NCBI RefSeq assembly: GCF_000302595.1
Contig: NZ_JH947127.1
Span: forward strand, 787,501 to 851,500
Direction of reading: 5' to 3'
Origin: Pedobacter arcticus A12
GTDB lineage: Bacteria > Bacteroidota > Bacteroidia > Sphingobacteriales > Sphingobacteriaceae
DNA length: 64,000 bases
The notes under the pieces: generated by a model
Database searches by the model: none
What the model was told of the DNA's origin: nothing
The model's input: only the letters and a program-made list of their open reading frames with translations
Translations under genes and position numbers: made by a program
Shown here: positions 3,009 to 58,657 of the stretch, one piece after another
How the letters are laid out: each line of letters opens with the position of its first letter
Numbering within the stretch: position 1 is the first letter of the stretch

Positions 3009-5339
3009 ATGCTAATAAAATACTTTAAATTAAACACCTTCTTATTACTGGCCGGACTAATTCTATCATCGTCTGCTGTAATTGCTCAAAACGGTTCTAT
3101 ATCCGGAATTGTAAAATCAGATGGATTTCCACTTTCTTCAGCTGCGGTTTCCATTAAAAAAACAGCTATGGGAAATGCAACGGATGCAGATGGAAAATAT
3201 GATATTCAAAAAGTACCTGCTGGCACTTACAAAATTCAGGCTTCATCAATCGGTTTTAACGTTTCAGAAAAAACAGTGGTAATTTCGGCAGGACAAAACT
3301 TGGTCCTAAACTTTGAGTTAGTCGCTAATATTTCTTCATTAGATCAAGTGGTGGTAACTGGAACACGGACTCCAAAACGACAAACCAATTCTCCGGTAAT
3401 TGTAAACCTCATCAACAGTAAAACCTTAGACCAAGTTATTGCAACAAGCCTTTCCGAAGGTTTAAAATACCAACCAGGTTTACGCGTTGAAACAGATTGC
3501 CAGACTTGTAATTATACGCAATTACGCATGAACGGATTACAGGGTGGGTATTCCCAAATTTTGGTAAACAGTCGTCCCATTTTTAGTCCGCTAACCGGGC
3601 TTTATGGTATGGAGCAAATCCCAACCAACATGATTGATAGAATTGAGGTGGTACGTGGTGGAGTTTCTGCGCTTTATGGATCTAGCGCTATTGGTGGAAC
3701 CGTAAACGTTATTACTAAAGTACCAGTTAGCAATAGCTACAGTTTAACCAATACTTTTCAAAGTATAAAAGGACAAACTACAGACAACATCATTTCTGGT
3801 AACGCATCTATTGTTAACGATGATAGAAATGCAGGAATTAGTTTTTTTGTTAATAACAGAAATCGTGGTCATTATGATGCAAACGGAGATAATTTTTCAG
3901 AACTTCCTAAACTAAAAGACAATACTTTTGGCACCAATATATTTTTCAAACCAACAGAAAACCAAAAACTGGAGGTTAGTTTAAGCAGTATTTATGAGTA
4001 TCGTTTTGGTGGCGAGATTGTAAACAAACCTGCTTATTTAGCTAAACAATCGGAAGAAAGAACACATAACGTTTTGATGGGTAGTGCAGATTATTCCATC
4101 AGTTTTAACGAAAATAAAAACTCATTGAGCTTTTACTACGGCGGACAAAACACCAAAAGAAATCATTATACCGGCATCAACCCAGATGATGCTGGAGAAT
4201 TAGCGCTTTTTTTTGCAGATCCACCTTACGGAACATCAGACGTTACCACACACCAAGGTGGTGTACAGTTCAACAACGGACTCGATAATTTTCTGGGAGG
4301 TAAAGCCGTACTAACAACTGGCGCAGAATATGTTTACGACTCGGTTTTTGATGAAATTGAACCCTACAACTACCTTATTGATCAAACTACAAAAAACGTT
4401 GGTGTATTTGTGCAGAACGATTGGGATATCACCAAAGATTTAAACTTTTTAACAGGGTTTAGATTAGACAAGCACAACTTGGTTGACCACGTAATTTTTA
4501 GTCCGCGGTTATCTTTAATGTACAAACTGCAAAAAGAAACACAATTTAGGTTAGGTTGGGGTACGGGATTTAGAGCTCCACAGGCATTTGATGCAGACTT
4601 ACACATTGCATTTGCGGGCGGTGGAGTCTCCCGTATTTCTTTGGCCGATGATTTAAAAGAAGAGCGTTCTAACAGTTTTACGGGTTCTGTAAATTATGAT
4701 AAAGCAACAGCGCATTTTATTGCAGGCTTTACCTTAGAAGGATTTTACACCCAATTAAAAGATGCTTTTTTCCAATATCCACTAGGCCCGGATGCTTTAG
4801 GCGAAAGATTCGAAAAAAGAAATGGACCTAGCGCTACCGTAAAAGGAATAACTTTAGAAGCCAGAGCAAACTTTGATTACGTGGTACAGCTTGATGCAGG
4901 CTTTACCTCACAACTGAGCGAATTTAACGAAGCTGTTGAAAATGTTGCAGGCCTAGCTTTAAAACGCGAATTTTTACGTACACCAAATAACTATGGGTAT
5001 GCGACCGTAACTTATAACCCAACAAAAAACTGGAACATTAGCGGAAACTTGGTTTACACTGGCAGTATGCTTTTAGCCCACGTTGCTGGTGCTGGAACCG
5101 GACAAGCAGTTGATGAATATTTCACTACAAAATCATTTACTGATGTTGGTTTTAGAATAGGCCACACTTTTGAACTGGATAAAGTAAAATCGGGTTTAGA
5201 ATTATTTGCGGGTATGAAAAACGTTCTAGACCAGTACCAAAATGATTTCGATATCGGAAAAAACAGAGATAGCAATTACGTTTATGGTCCATCTTTACCA
5301 CGAAGTGTAATTTTTGGGTTGCGATTAAAATCTCTTTAA
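3009..5339 (+). CDS. TonB-dependent outer-membrane receptor
   Basis: A 776-residue receptor. Residues 1-27 form a Sec signal peptide ending at AVIAQ. Residues about 30-110 are a CarboxypepD_reg-like beta-sandwich (SGIVKSDGFPLSSAAVSIKK), typical of Bacteroidota receptors. The plug starts at VVVTGTRTPKRQ (about 115), contains the cysteine pair DCQTCNYTQLRMNG, and ends with VEVVRGGVSALYGSSAIGG. The rest is the 22-strand barrel, ending GLRLKSL. The ligand cannot be read from sequence: small chelated metals, heme or cobalamin are all possible for this plug type. It shares an operon with the thioredoxin-like gene 13 bp downstream. The palindrome in its promoter suggests repression by a metal-sensing regulator (inference). 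Confidence 0.92.
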   Translation: MLIKYFKLNTFLLLAGLILSSSAVIAQNGSISGIVKSDGFPLSSAAVSIKKTAMGNATDADGKYDIQKVPAGTYKIQASSIGFNVSEKTVVISAGQNLVLNFELVANISSLDQVVVTGTRTPKRQTNSPVIVNLINSKTLDQVIATSLSEGLKYQPGLRVETDCQTCNYTQLRMNGLQGGYSQILVNSRPIFSPLTGLYGMEQIPTNMIDRIEVVRGGVSALYGSSAIGGTVNVITKVPVSNSYSLTNTFQSIKGQTTDNIISGNASIVNDDRNAGISFFVNNRNRGHYDANGDNFSELPKLKDNTFGTNIFFKPTENQKLEVSLSSIYEYRFGGEIVNKPAYLAKQSEERTHNVLMGSADYSISFNENKNSLSFYYGGQNTKRNHYTGINPDDAGELALFFADPPYGTSDVTTHQGGVQFNNGLDNFLGGKAVLTTGAEYVYDSVFDEIEPYNYLIDQTTKNVGVFVQNDWDITKDLNFLTGFRLDKHNLVDHVIFSPRLSLMYKLQKETQFRLGWGTGFRAPQAFDADLHIAFAGGGVSRISLADDLKEERSNSFTGSVNYDKATAHFIAGFTLEGFYTQLKDAFFQYPLGPDALGERFEKRNGPSATVKGITLEARANFDYVVQLDAGFTSQLSEFNEAVENVAGLALKREFLRTPNNYGYATVTYNPTKNWNISGNLVYTGSMLLAHVAGAGTGQAVDEYFTTKSFTDVGFRIGHTFELDKVKSGLELFAGMKNVLDQYQNDFDIGKNRDSNYVYGPSLPRSVIFGLRLKSL

Positions 5340-8551: not shown

Positions 8552-8590
8552 CAAACAAGGGTTTAGAAAATTTTTCTAAACCCTTGTTTG
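8552..8590 (+). terminator. 39-bp perfect palindrome, probable terminator
   Basis: Arms CAAACAAGGGTTTAGAAAA (8552-8570) and TTTTCTAAACCCTTGTTTG (8572-8590) are perfectly complementary around a single T. As RNA it would fold into a 17-19 bp hairpin, with a T-rich 3' arm and TTTATAT following. It may end lpdA transcription, although it lies nearly 200 bp after that stop. Its length and perfection are unusual. Confidence 0.55.
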
Positions 8591-20401: not shown

Positions 20402-20839
20402 ATGGAATGGTATTTTGCCCTATTAGCTGTTATTTCGACCATTGCTGGGATGGAAACCTTATCCTGGGCAATCCATAAATATTTATTTCACGGTGCGTTA
20501 TGGTTTATACATAAAACGCACCACCAAGAAAGGCATGGCTTTTTTGAGTTTAACGATATTTTTAGCCTAGGTTTTGCAACGTTAGCACTTGCACTTATGT
20601 GGGCTGGTCACGAAAATCTAGACTATAAGTTTTGGATTGGCACTGGTATTTCTATTTATGGTATCATCTATTTTATTTTTCACGACTGGTTTATCCATAA
20701 TCGATTAAAGGCTTTTAAATCCAACAGCAGATATTTAAAAGGGATAAGAAGAGCTCATAAAATGCATCATAAAACCACACAAAAAGATGGATCTAAAGAG
20801 TTTGGCTTGTTGGTGGCTAGTAAAAAGTATTTTAAATAG
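20402..20839 (+). CDS. crtZ: Beta-carotene hydroxylase-type fatty acid hydroxylase (CrtZ-like)
   Basis: A 145-residue membrane di-iron hydroxylase with the expected histidine clusters: HKYLFH (about 26-31), HKTHHQERH (about 39-47), HDWFIH (about 98-103) and HKMHH (about 118-122), with hydrophobic helices at about 5-20 and 52-90. CrtZ adds 3-hydroxyls to the beta-ionone rings of carotenoids, giving zeaxanthin, the usual yellow pigment of these bacteria. No other carotenoid genes are in the window. TAAATTTG at 20387-20394 would place transcription start almost at the ATG, so the mRNA may be nearly leaderless (weak inference, no clear -33). Confidence 0.9.
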   Translation: MEWYFALLAVISTIAGMETLSWAIHKYLFHGALWFIHKTHHQERHGFFEFNDIFSLGFATLALALMWAGHENLDYKFWIGTGISIYGIIYFIFHDWFIHNRLKAFKSNSRYLKGIRRAHKMHHKTTQKDGSKEFGLLVASKKYFK

Positions 20840-21025: not shown

Positions 21026-22039
21026 ATGTTACAGACACACGAAAACGCTTCTTTAAAAAACTTCAACACATTTGGCATTGAGGCTTATGCCCGATATTTT
21101 GTAGAGATAAACCATAAAGAAGAGTTACAGGAATTGTTTACTGATGCGAAATGGCATAAAATTCAATGTTTGGTTTTAGGTGGCGGAAGTAATATGCTAT
21201 TCACACAGAATTTTGACGGATTGGTCATCAAGATCAATATCCGCGGTATTGAACACCGAATTAACCACGATGAGGTAATTGTAGAAGCTGGAGCAGGCGA
21301 AATCTGGAATAATTTTGTGAATTACTGTGTGAGCTGGGGTTTTGCGGGTGTAGAAAACTTAAGTTTAATTCCAGGATCCGTTGGTGCCTCTCCTATCCAA
21401 AACATTGGTGCCTATGGTGTTGAGCTAAAGGATGTTTTTGAAAGTTGCGAAGCATTTGAAATTTCAACAGGTAATTTTGTTAGCTTTAACAATACCGATT
21501 GCAAATTTGGGTATCGCGAAAGTGTATTCAAACAAGATAAAAAAGGGCAGTACATTGTTTGTAACGTAAAATTCAAACTTTCTACCAAAGAGCACATCAA
21601 TATCAGTTATGGTGCCATTACTGCAGAGCTTGAGAAAAATGGAATTACCCAACCAAGTATAAAAGATGTTAGTAAAGTAGTGTCAGAAATTAGGGTTTCA
21701 AAATTGCCGGATCCATCTACAATTGGCAACGCAGGTTCCTTTTTTAAAAACCCAGTGATTGAGCAACAAGTTTTCGATAAAATCCACAAACAATTCCCCA
21801 ACATTGTTCACTTCGTTGTCGACAAAGGAATTAAGCTGGCTGCCGGTTGGCTAATTGAGCAATGTGATTGGAAAGGTAAAGTTGTGGGAGAAACTGGTAC
21901 TTGGAAAAATCAGGCCTTAGTTTTGGTAAATCACGGAAAAGCAACCGGACAAGAAGTGTACAATTTATCAGAAAACATCATAGAATCTGTTGAACAAAAA
22001 TTTGGAGTTCGATTAGAACGTGAAGTAAATATTTTTTAA
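21026..22039 (+). CDS. murB: UDP-N-acetylmuramate dehydrogenase
   Basis: A 337-residue FAD enzyme that reduces UDP-GlcNAc-enolpyruvate to UDP-MurNAc in peptidoglycan precursor synthesis. It is of the E. coli type I class: NTFGIEAYARYF at the start, LGGGSNMLF (about 50-58), LIPGSVGASPIQNIGAYGVE (about 114-133), the Tyr loop in FGYRESVFK (about 157-165), GNAGSFFKNPVI (about 235-246) and the C-terminal VVGETGTWKNQALVLVNHG. The length matches E. coli MurB (342). It is a single gene, ended by a clear terminator. Confidence 0.96.
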   Translation: MLQTHENASLKNFNTFGIEAYARYFVEINHKEELQELFTDAKWHKIQCLVLGGGSNMLFTQNFDGLVIKINIRGIEHRINHDEVIVEAGAGEIWNNFVNYCVSWGFAGVENLSLIPGSVGASPIQNIGAYGVELKDVFESCEAFEISTGNFVSFNNTDCKFGYRESVFKQDKKGQYIVCNVKFKLSTKEHINISYGAITAELEKNGITQPSIKDVSKVVSEIRVSKLPDPSTIGNAGSFFKNPVIEQQVFDKIHKQFPNIVHFVVDKGIKLAAGWLIEQCDWKGKVVGETGTWKNQALVLVNHGKATGQEVYNLSENIIESVEQKFGVRLEREVNIF

Positions 22040-22060
22040 ACCGTTTGATAAAACAGTATG

Positions 22061-22096
22061 AAAAACCATTCTTACAATGTAAGAGTGGTTTTTTTG
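22061..22096 (+). terminator. Terminator of murB
   Basis: AACCATTCTTAC and GTAAGAGTGGTT pair with one mismatch around a short loop (about 22064-22090) and are followed by TTTTTT. It lies about 25 bp after the murB stop. Confidence 0.85.
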
Positions 22097-22138: not shown

Positions 22139-22211
22139 TCAAATTTTGTTTAACTATTTTCAATAAAAGTTAAACAAAATTTGATGTTACAACATTTGTT
22201 CCGTAGTTTTG
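22139..22211 (+). promoter_or_regulatory. ECF sigma gene promoter overlapped by a perfect 17-bp inverted repeat
   Basis: TCAAATTTTGTTTAACT (22139-22155) and AGTTAAACAAAATTTGA (22168-22184) are exact reverse complements, 12 bp apart. The right arm contains TTTG (22180-22183), which lies 20 bp before TAGTTTTG (22204-22211), an exact TAnnTTTG box. The repeat thus covers the -33 element of the promoter of the sigma factor gene at 22242. No T-run follows, so it is not a terminator; it looks like an operator. Confidence 0.65.
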
Positions 22212-22241
22212 TTGAAGTTTCACACATATTATCTAAGCAAA

Positions 22242-22760
22242 ATGACACAGATAGAATTCAGCACTTTAGTAGTGCGTCAATCATCATCATTAAAAACTTA
22301 TGCTTTGCGATTCACCCGCGACATGGAGGATGCTAATGATTTGGTCCAAGAAACTTTATTGAAAGCCGTCACTTATCGCAACAATTTTAAAGAGGGGACA
22401 AACATTAACGGTTGGTTATACACCATTATGAAAAACACTTTTATCAATGGGTACCGTAAGTTCGTTAAAACAGCTGCTATCATTACAAAAACAGACGAGA
22501 TTTCTTCTCAACAGCTTTCATTTAGTGCTTCCAGCAACAAAGCGGAGAATAAATTTATGATGGATGACATTCAGCAGGCTTTAAAAGCTTTGCCCCAAGA
22601 ATATTATATTCCCTTTACCATGTATTTTGAAGGCTATAAGTACCATGAAATAGCTGGTGATTTAGATATCCCAATTGGAACGGTCAAAACCAGAATACAT
22701 GTGGCTCGGAAACTTTTGAAAAAAAGTCTGAACGTTTATAACTATAAGAATGTAGCATAG
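22242..22760 (+). CDS. ECF-type RNA polymerase sigma factor
   Basis: A 172-residue sigma-70 family ECF factor. ATG 22242 is preferred; the TTG at 22209 falls inside the -7 promoter box. Region 2 contains ALRFTRDMEDANDLVQETLLKA and NINGWLYTIMKNTFINGYRK (about 20-78). Region 4 contains LPQEYYIPFTMYFEGYKYHEIA and then IPIGTVKTRIHVARKLLKK (about 118-162). No anti-sigma gene is adjacent, which suggests transcriptional control rather than membrane sequestration, in line with the striking inverted repeat at its promoter. The regulon is unknown. Confidence 0.93.
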   Translation: MTQIEFSTLVVRQSSSLKTYALRFTRDMEDANDLVQETLLKAVTYRNNFKEGTNINGWLYTIMKNTFINGYRKFVKTAAIITKTDEISSQQLSFSASSNKAENKFMMDDIQQALKALPQEYYIPFTMYFEGYKYHEIAGDLDIPIGTVKTRIHVARKLLKKSLNVYNYKNVA

Positions 22761-22784: not shown

Positions 22785-22828
22785 AAAAACAAAAAGAGAT
22801 TTGATTTTCAAGTCTCTTTTTGTTTTTA
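22785..22828. terminator. Bidirectional terminator between sigma gene and TlpA-like gene
   Basis: AAAAACAAAAAGAGA (22785-22799) and TCTCTTTTTGTTTTT (22813-22827) are perfectly complementary, giving A/T-rich tails on both sides. It can serve the two convergent genes; the stop codon of the minus-strand gene lies within the right arm. Confidence 0.75.
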
Positions 22829-25107: not shown

Positions 25108-25773
25108 TTATTTAGTGCAATTAATTAGCGAAAGAAATTCGGCTTTGGTTTTTTCGTTCTCAAATTTTCCGGAATAACTTACCGTGATGGTGTTACTGTT
25201 GGTATCTTTAATTCCCCGAGATGCAACGCAAAGATGTTCAGCATCAATCATCACTGCTACATCTTTAGTTCCGATGGCATCTCTTAAGCCGTTTGCAATT
25301 TGTTGCGTAAGGCGCTCTTGAACTTGTGGTCTTTTGGCATAAAACTGCACTAAACGATTGATTTTTGAAAGTCCAATTACAGCTCCATTTGAAATATAAG
25401 CAACATGCACTTTTCCAATAATCGGCACAAAATGATGCTCGCAATAAGAATATAAAGTGATGTTTTTTTCAATCAGCATCTCATTATAGCTATAACTGTT
25501 TTTAAACAACGAAATAGCAGGTTTATTAGCAGGATTTAATCCGCTAAACACTTCTTCTACATACATTTTTGCAACTCTTTTAGGTGTATTTTTCAAGCTA
25601 TCGTCTGATAAATCTAAACCTAAAACAGTCATTATTTTTTTAAAATGCCTTTCTATTATTGCAATTTTTTCAGCGTCGCTCATCAAAAAAGCATTTTCTA
25701 GCATCGGCGTATTTAAACCGGTAGAAATATGATCATCATCTAAAATTTCTACCGCTTCGGCACATATATTCAT
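25108..25773 (-). CDS. folE: GTP cyclohydrolase I
   Basis: A 221-residue type I enzyme that converts GTP to 7,8-dihydroneopterin triphosphate, the first step of folate and pterin synthesis. Visible: NTPKRVAKMYVEEVFSGL (about 62-79), the zinc cysteine and histidines in YCEHHFVPIIGKVHVAYI (about 110-127), SKINRLVQFYAKRPQVQERL, and the second zinc cysteine in DAEHLCVASRGIK (about 178-190). Length is normal. Its start overlaps the stop of the ECF sigma gene by 4 bp (translational coupling), an unusual partner. A second folE copy elsewhere in the genome would suggest that this one serves a specialised pterin need. Confidence 0.95.
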   Translation of the reverse strand: MNICAEAVEILDDDHISTGLNTPMLENAFLMSDAEKIAIIERHFKKIMTVLGLDLSDDSLKNTPKRVAKMYVEEVFSGLNPANKPAISLFKNSYSYNEMLIEKNITLYSYCEHHFVPIIGKVHVAYISNGAVIGLSKINRLVQFYAKRPQVQERLTQQIANGLRDAIGTKDVAVMIDAEHLCVASRGIKDTNSNTITVSYSGKFENEKTKAEFLSLINCTK

Positions 25774-26429
25774 AGGTTGCTCTCTTTAATTTTGTTCATC
25801 ACTCTGTTTACTATTCCGTCGCAGTAAATCAGGTTAAACTGGAAAATATCCTCTTTAGAATAAAATTTCTCAATCTCTTTCCTCAGCATAGTTTTTGCCC
25901 TACTTAATCTGGTTTTAACATTATCCTCGCTAATGGCCAAAATCTCGGCAACTTCTGCACCATTCAATTCGTTGCTTTCCCGTAAGGTAAAAACCACACG
26001 ATAATCTAAAGGAATTTGTGCCAAAGCACTTTCAATTACCGAACTCAGTTCTTTATTTAAAATGCTTCTTTCTGTATCTGTATTTTTTTGACTTGTAAAC
26101 ATAGGCGTAGATTTTTCGTCTATTTCTCCGGCTTTAACGTGATCGAAACTCCATTTCTTCTGCTTTTTAAAGCAATTATTGAGCATGATTTTCAATATCC
26201 AGGTTTTAAAGCTCGACCGGTTTTGAAACGATGCCAGATTGGTGTACGCATTTACAAAAGTATCTTGCATTAAATCCTGGGTATCCTCATGGTTATAGTT
26301 ATAGGAGCGACCCAGACGGTATAAAAACGGATTGTTTCGTCTAATTATTATTTCAAATATCGCTAAATCTCCCGCTAGCACCTTTTCAATAAGTTGTGTA
26401 TCAGTATGTTTTTGAGGCAATTCCATCAT
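25770..26429 (-). CDS. ECF-type RNA polymerase sigma factor coupled to folE
   Basis: A 219-residue ECF sigma factor, longer than usual. Region 2 is RLGRSYNYNHEDTQDLMQDT and the following FKTWILKIMLNNCFKKQKK (about 36-96). Region 4 is LAQIPLDYRVVFTLRESNEL with GAEVAEILAISEDNVKTRLS (about 135-180). The C-terminal 30 residues (YCDGIVNRVMNKI) form an extra tail that may act in regulation. It lies between a DoxX-like membrane gene (7 bp upstream) and folE (4-bp overlap). No canonical anti-sigma is present; the DoxX-like membrane protein could play a sensing part, but that is speculation. Confidence 0.92.
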   Translation of the reverse strand: MMELPQKHTDTQLIEKVLAGDLAIFEIIIRRNNPFLYRLGRSYNYNHEDTQDLMQDTFVNAYTNLASFQNRSSFKTWILKIMLNNCFKKQKKWSFDHVKAGEIDEKSTPMFTSQKNTDTERSILNKELSSVIESALAQIPLDYRVVFTLRESNELNGAEVAEILAISEDNVKTRLSRAKTMLRKEIEKFYSKEDIFQFNLIYCDGIVNRVMNKIKESNL

Positions 26430-26436
26430 TAAAAAA

Positions 26437-26820
26437 TTAATTAAGGGCTTTTGCTATTCTAGCCATAGAAAATGCACTAATCGCCATCACTAAATCGCGG
26501 ACAGCAACGTCTAAAAAGTTCAGACTAAAAATCAGGGTTAACGCTATTGAAGCTAGCCATGCAGCTACAATATAACCACCAATTTCTGTTTTTTTTATCA
26601 CAATTAAGCCGGCAATAATTTCTATTACACCAACAATCATCATAAAAGTATGGCCCGAAAAAGGCAACATCTCCAATAATGTTGGGTTAATGTACTTATC
26701 CCACTGGGTCAACAAATTGGTAAACTTGTCCAAACCCGCAACAATAGGCACTACTACAAAAACTAAGTGTAATAAGTTGAATGTAGGTTTGATTTTCTGA
26801 TTCAAAGTTAACGTTTCCAT
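26437..26820 (-). CDS. DoxX-like membrane protein, first gene of the sigma-folE operon
   Basis: A 127-residue protein with four predicted membrane helices (about 14-32, 52-72, 78-96, 100-122). Features: NLLHLVFVVVPIVAGLDKFTNLLTQWDKYI at the start (described in parts), then GVIEIIAGLIVIKKTEIGGYIVAAWLA. It resembles small DoxX/DUF families of Bacteroidota. It heads the operon with the ECF sigma factor and folE. Its role is unknown; being membrane-bound, it may be the operon's link to the envelope. Confidence 0.82.
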   Translation of the reverse strand: METLTLNQKIKPTFNLLHLVFVVVPIVAGLDKFTNLLTQWDKYINPTLLEMLPFSGHTFMMIVGVIEIIAGLIVIKKTEIGGYIVAAWLASIALTLIFSLNFLDVAVRDLVMAISAFSMARIAKALN

Positions 26821-45154: not shown

Positions 45155-45197
45155 CAAAAAAGAATGGTCTTTCTTTTTTAAAGAAAGACCATTCCAA
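45155..45197 (-). terminator. Terminator of trxA
   Basis: GAATGGTCTTTCTTT (45162-45176) and AAAGAAAGACCATTC (45180-45194) are perfectly complementary; on the minus strand the hairpin is followed by TTTTTTG. It lies about 15 bp after the thioredoxin stop. Confidence 0.9.
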
Positions 45198-58623: not shown

Positions 58624-58657
58624 AACAAAAGGTTGCCTTACAAGGCAACCTTTTGTT
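58624..58657 (+). terminator. Terminator of the outer-membrane barrel gene
   Basis: AACAAAAGGTTGCCTT (58624-58639) and AAGGCAACCTTTTGTT (58642-58657) are perfectly complementary around two bases, with a T-rich 3' arm. Confidence 0.9.

Follow-up and report, generated by a model that had tools for sequence, protein, structure and literature searches.

An inverted repeat overlapping the promoter of an ECF sigma factor gene in Pedobacter arcticus is most likely a CarH-like operator

In Myxococcus xanthus, the ECF sigma factor CarQ is held by the anti-sigma protein CarR. CarH proteins are said to be defined by two motifs, Wx9EH and ExHxxG, and their contacts with operator DNA follow the consensus nAnnTnnACAn (PMC8156234). 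In Streptomyces coelicolor, the ECF sigma factor LitS is under the control of LitR and transcribes carotenoid genes (PMC12705666). For the class II LitR proteins PplR1 and PmlR2 of Pseudomonas, the P. putida regulon includes photolyase, a cryptochrome-like protein and folE (PMC9758184).

We compared these systems with an ECF sigma factor gene of Pedobacter arcticus A12, located in a stretch of 64,000 nucleotides (the window, to which all coordinates without a contig label refer). The gene (22242-22760, plus strand) encodes 172 amino acids with Pfam domains Sigma70_r2 and r4_2; its start (MTQIEF) was set by orthologs. An anti-sigma gene was not seen adjoining it. The perfect inverted repeat described in the initial annotation is present upstream (22139-22184): the two 17-bp arms, TCAAATTTTGTTTAACT (22139-22155) and AGTTAAACAAAATTTGA (22168-22184), are exact and separated by a loop of 12 bp. 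The right arm does supply promoter sequence, as had been proposed. Its outer end contains the TTTG of the -33 box (22180-22183, plus strand) of a Bacteroidetes-type promoter, which lies N20 from the -7 box TAGTTTTG (22204-22211, plus strand). Within the repeat, a conserved core forms the putative operator dyad 1 (22145-22178) with the half-sites TTTGTTTAAC (22145-22154) and GTTAAACAAA (22169-22178). This dyad is exact in the window and is shared upstream of the orthologs in the genus. A degenerate dyad 2, TTTGTTGAAG...CTAAGCAAA (22208-22241), has three mismatches and reaches from the -7 box up to the start codon.

At the composition of the window, perfect inverted repeats with arms of at least 17 bp and loops of up to 30 bp are expected 0.0004 times per 64 kb, and the longest arms in six Markov-1 simulations of the window were 12 bp. 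The view that the repeat is improbable by chance agrees with these numbers, but rarity is weak proof here: the window holds one longer perfect repeat (19-bp arms) and three with arms of 15-16 bp, so that perfection alone does not prove function. The longer one (8552-8590) has a 1-bp loop; the three others (45162-45194, 58624-58657 and 22785-22827) are probably terminators. It is conservation, and not perfection, that shows the function of the repeat. The initial annotation had counted an exact 34-base match. While the repeat is real, the part conserved in relatives consists of the half-site cores, just ~8-10 bp per arm (TTTGTTTAAC), together with the TTTG on the right side, which doubles as the conserved -33 box. 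Outside the cores the symmetry is mostly not conserved, a pattern that suits half-sites for a protein better than the stem of an RNA. A search of the 4.23-Mb genome, as had been advised, found GTTAAACAAAATTTG in the two arms of the repeat only, even when one mismatch was allowed.

One clear ortholog of the sigma gene is present in every one of the 18 genus members, and in 17 of them the dyad TTTGTTTAAC-N14/15-GTTAAACAAA lies upstream of it. Two dyads, each with zero to three mismatches, are found in 16 members at a distance of 63-65 bp. One of the two ends at the -33 box, while the other begins at the -7 box and extends as far as the start codon; in most relatives this second dyad has 0-2 mismatches, compared to three in the window. 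G005 has a single dyad. The promoter pattern TTTG (or TTG)-N20/21-TAnnTTTG is conserved across the genus. Absence of the repeat from relatives that keep the sigma gene had been named as a finding that would speak against it. This is the case in G008, the sole genus member without a dyad upstream of the sigma gene; that single-contig genome is also the only one in the genus that lacks the MerR gene described below (the proteins that match MerR weakly there are different and shorter). The suggestion that the repeat is the control point of a sigma factor without an anti-sigma neighbour is supported and plausible; a regulatory site lies at the promoter and is conserved in relatives.

The gene order around the sigma gene, with a crtZ-like hydroxylase of the FA_hydroxylase family (20402-20839), murB (21026-22039) and the sigma gene, also occurs in some relatives (L135, L209), a hint that the sigma factor may be connected with carotenoids. 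On the minus strand, the window has another locus (25108-26820) where an ECF sigma gene overlaps folE, with a gene upstream for a small membrane-protein-like product of 127 aa that matched no Pfam family. The dyad was not found at this locus.

In relatives, the same 34-35-bp dyad stands before a candidate regulon. It precedes a rhodopsin gene that is followed by genes for lycopene cyclase (crtY) and the Blh dioxygenase, and an operon encoding 6-pyruvoyl-tetrahydropterin synthase (6-PTPS), FolE, an SDR protein, a flavin reductase and a TetR-like protein. This pterin operon adjoins TIGR03643 and DASH cryptochrome genes. In 14 genomes outside the genus an exact dyad is located immediately (3-50 bp) before a gene for a MerR protein, with N16 spacing in G116, G097, G128, G120, G107, G112, G149 and G051, and N17 spacing in G145, G104, G141, G075, G113 and G093. 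In G105 the distance to the MerR gene is ~110 bp. A dyad also precedes crtI beside the MerR gene (G141, G113, G133, G117), and exact dyads were found before the sigma gene outside the genus (G021, G061, G072, G040, G070, G089). Pattern matches of other lengths sit by other genes; those of 28 and 42-46 bp were set aside as background.

In P. arcticus itself, the dyad stands solely at the sigma gene, and none was found before the MerR, DASH cryptochrome and crtI genes of this genome, which has no rhodopsin gene. A search allowing up to three mismatches gave 52 matches in this genome and 37 in a reversed control, and is therefore uninformative except at the sigma promoter. G024 has two dyads (L293:3092-3123 and 3179-3210, the second with two mismatches) between ribonucleotide-reductase-like and glycosyltransferase-like genes, and the P. 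arcticus counterpart of the latter (L289:9002) is clustered with a gene of the crtI family. Relatives also have genes for a TetR_C_23 protein and a UbiB-like kinase within their light-linked pterin operon or behind it (L136:5646-7700).

The association between dyad and MerR gene was quantified in 133 genomes sampled from the family, outside the genus, by counting exact dyads with N16 or N17 between TTGTTTAA and TTAAACAA. The dyad is present in 24 of the 45 genomes with the MerR gene and in 3 of the 88 without it (Fisher test, 4e-11, phylogeny ignored). Restriction to sigma-positive genomes gave a similar picture (19/35 and 3/80, respectively; 2e-9, likewise ignoring phylogeny). Dyads with N14, N15, N18 or N19 spacing had no association with the MerR gene and were regarded as background. 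An exact dyad is lacking in 21 MerR-positive genomes outside the genus, which may reflect sequence drift. Conversely, G089 has kept the dyad at its sigma gene (L209), while no MerR protein of the CarH-like family was detectable there even at E = 10; this dyad could be a remnant, or else some other protein could bind it.

The P. arcticus MerR gene (contig C4, 24483-25364) adjoins the DASH cryptochrome gene, and in several relatives the MerR gene likewise lies beside cryptochrome or photolyase-like genes. The protein of ~300 aa matches the Pfam domains MerR_1 (56 bits, cut-off 21.6) and B12-binding_2 (above cut-off); the match of the B12-binding (Rossmann) domain is weak and under the Pfam cut-off. 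CarH of Thermus thermophilus (PDB) aligns with it over ~216 residues (7e-18). The motif Wx9EH occurs in all 24 MerR proteins examined (WQVGTINPAHEH in P. arcticus) and ExHxxG in 23 of them, including that of P. arcticus. By sequence, the protein has the features of CarH and class I LitR, namely an N-terminal MerR-type DNA-binding domain, a C-terminal B12-binding module with ExHxxG, and Wx9EH. MliR, a MerR-like protein of Bacteroidetes, was considered and rejected; it is described as having no effector-binding domain (PMC9478572) and therefore belongs to a different family. Further support for a match of protein and site is provided by the half-sites: in the register AAGTTAAACAA, the CarH contact consensus falls on their most conserved positions, and 61 of 78 half-sites match it fully.

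The conservation of the dyad, its tracking of the MerR gene, the fit to the contact consensus and the position of the P. arcticus MerR gene beside the DASH cryptochrome gene make the inverted repeat most likely a CarH-like operator, and the sigma factor a predicted target of a B12 photoreceptor. The assignment of the dyad as the putative site of the CarH-like MerR protein has strong computational support. We consider it quite probable that the repeat is the first, upstream member of a pair of operator dyads through which a CarH/LitR-type MerR protein would repress the sigma gene in the dark and release it in the light. In the dark, the adenosylcobalamin-bound regulator would occupy the dyad that covers the -33 box, together with the second dyad (-7 box to start codon) in most relatives, and would block RNA polymerase with the housekeeping sigma factor. 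Light would break the B12 chromophore, the regulator would leave the DNA, and the ECF sigma gene would be transcribed. Control would then act on sigma synthesis and not via an anti-sigma protein. The computation shows the dyad with its conservation and candidate regulon, its place before the MerR gene and co-occurrence with it, and the B12 signature residues. That control is by repression and depends on B12 and light is inferred from the protein family; binding of the regulator to the DNA and the genes driven by the sigma factor are likewise inferred. Counting against an operator of this kind are the lack of a dyad before the P. arcticus MerR, DASH and crtI genes, the MerR-less dyad of G089, the 21 MerR-positive genomes without an exact dyad, and a geometry that differs from that of T. 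thermophilus CarH.

It is possible, but unlikely, that the dyad binds the CarH-like MerR protein while this protein is no light-released dark repressor, and for example works independently of B12 (as CarA does), activates its targets or answers to a different signal. A 2025 Streptomyces paper reports that LitR positively regulates litS after light (PMC12705666), and class II LitR senses through a LOV protein (PMC9758184). The weak Rossmann domain and the one protein without ExHxxG point in the same direction. Against this, the two motifs found in 24 and 23 of the 24 proteins are those said to define CarH (PMC8156234), and a block of RNA polymerase would predict the overlap of the dyads with the -33 and -7 boxes. 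It is quite improbable that the dyad is bound by some other regulator of this light regulon, such as the TetR-like (TetR_C_23) protein of the pterin operon of relatives. In several relatives the operon that follows the dyad does contain the gene of a TetR_C_23 protein, and G089 has the dyad but no detectable CarH-like MerR protein; however, the autoregulatory position in the 14 genomes is before the MerR gene, the dyad follows that gene, and the half-site fits the CarH contact consensus.

The initial annotation had also raised the idea that the repeated GTTAAAC is an autoregulatory site of the ECF sigma factor itself. The repeat does sit at the promoter of the sigma gene, but this idea is rejected by the co-occurrence data and appears scarcely credible. 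Five genomes have the dyad right in front of the MerR gene but yielded no sigma ortholog at the cut-off of 1e-40, so that the site is not confined to genomes in which the sigma gene was found. Moreover, 77 of the 80 sigma-positive, MerR-negative genomes lack the dyad, and once the MerR gene is present, the sigma gene makes no difference to its occurrence. The site is also symmetric; this would suit a DNA-binding protein that acts as a multimer, whereas a promoter is different in this respect. Less credible still is an action of the repeat as RNA (hairpin, terminator or attenuator): a stem with 17 perfect pairs is conceivable, but the repeat lies upstream of the promoter boxes, so that a transcript from this promoter would exclude it, relatives keep the core half-sites and not the flanking pairs, murB has its own, separate terminator-like hairpin (22060-22094, plus strand), and no Rfam family matches the repeat.

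Beyond the sigma gene, the operator reading may extend to other members of the family. We give a slight preference to the view that members of the family use a B12 photoreceptor of the CarH kind with an inverted-dyad operator as the master switch of a light regulon. Light would be relayed via sigma synthesis and not via an anti-sigma protein, and the regulon in some species would comprise rhodopsin and the retinal pathway, pterin synthesis, carotenoid genes and the free-standing ECF sigma factor. The open-licence literature that was searched contained no such regulator of rhodopsin or carotenoid genes in this family, no such system in Bacteroidetes, and no inverted-dyad operator of this kind, which, for a search of open-licence papers only, is no proof of novelty. 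The 34-35-bp dyad provides a readable DNA code for the candidate light regulon of a Bacteroidota family, and a specific candidate answer to how an ECF sigma factor without an anti-sigma neighbour could be controlled. If true, rhodopsin expression in some of these bacteria would be tied to vitamin B12.

The system of M. xanthus (CarQ-CarR and CarA-CarH) shares with the predicted one a light response that involves an ECF sigma factor and CarH/CarA repressors. In contrast to CarQ, the sigma factor described here has no anti-sigma neighbour that was seen, and its gene itself bears the operator. For PmlR2, a class II LitR protein of Pseudomonas, each promoter likewise contains a pair of sites; the first covers the -35 region, and the second lies between the transcription start and the ATG (PMC9758184). 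However, the PplR1/PmlR2 consensus, T(G/A)TACA-N12-TGTA(C/T)A, is different, class II LitR proteins have a single B12-binding domain instead of two, and PmlR2 acts together with a LOV protein (PMC9758184). With CarH of T. thermophilus and Bacillus megaterium, the MerR protein shares the MerR DNA-binding domain, the B12-binding module, Wx9EH and ExHxxG, while on the DNA side the contact consensus fits the half-sites and the operator overlaps the promoter. Known CarH operators are 11-bp direct repeats, as in T. thermophilus (PMC8156234), an arrangement that was not found here. The half-sites are inverted and 24-25 bp apart, which places the operator outside the known direct-repeat type, and the sigma promoter usually has two such dyads ~64 bp apart. 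This departure would test the flexibility of DNA recognition by CarH. The closest known case of an ECF sigma gene under a B12-binding MerR protein is LitR-LitS of S. coelicolor. The logic of a B12-based MerR-type light sensor acting on an ECF sigma gene would be shared by the candidate control proposed here, whereas in P. arcticus, which belongs to another phylum, the genes of the sigma factor and the regulator are not neighbours.
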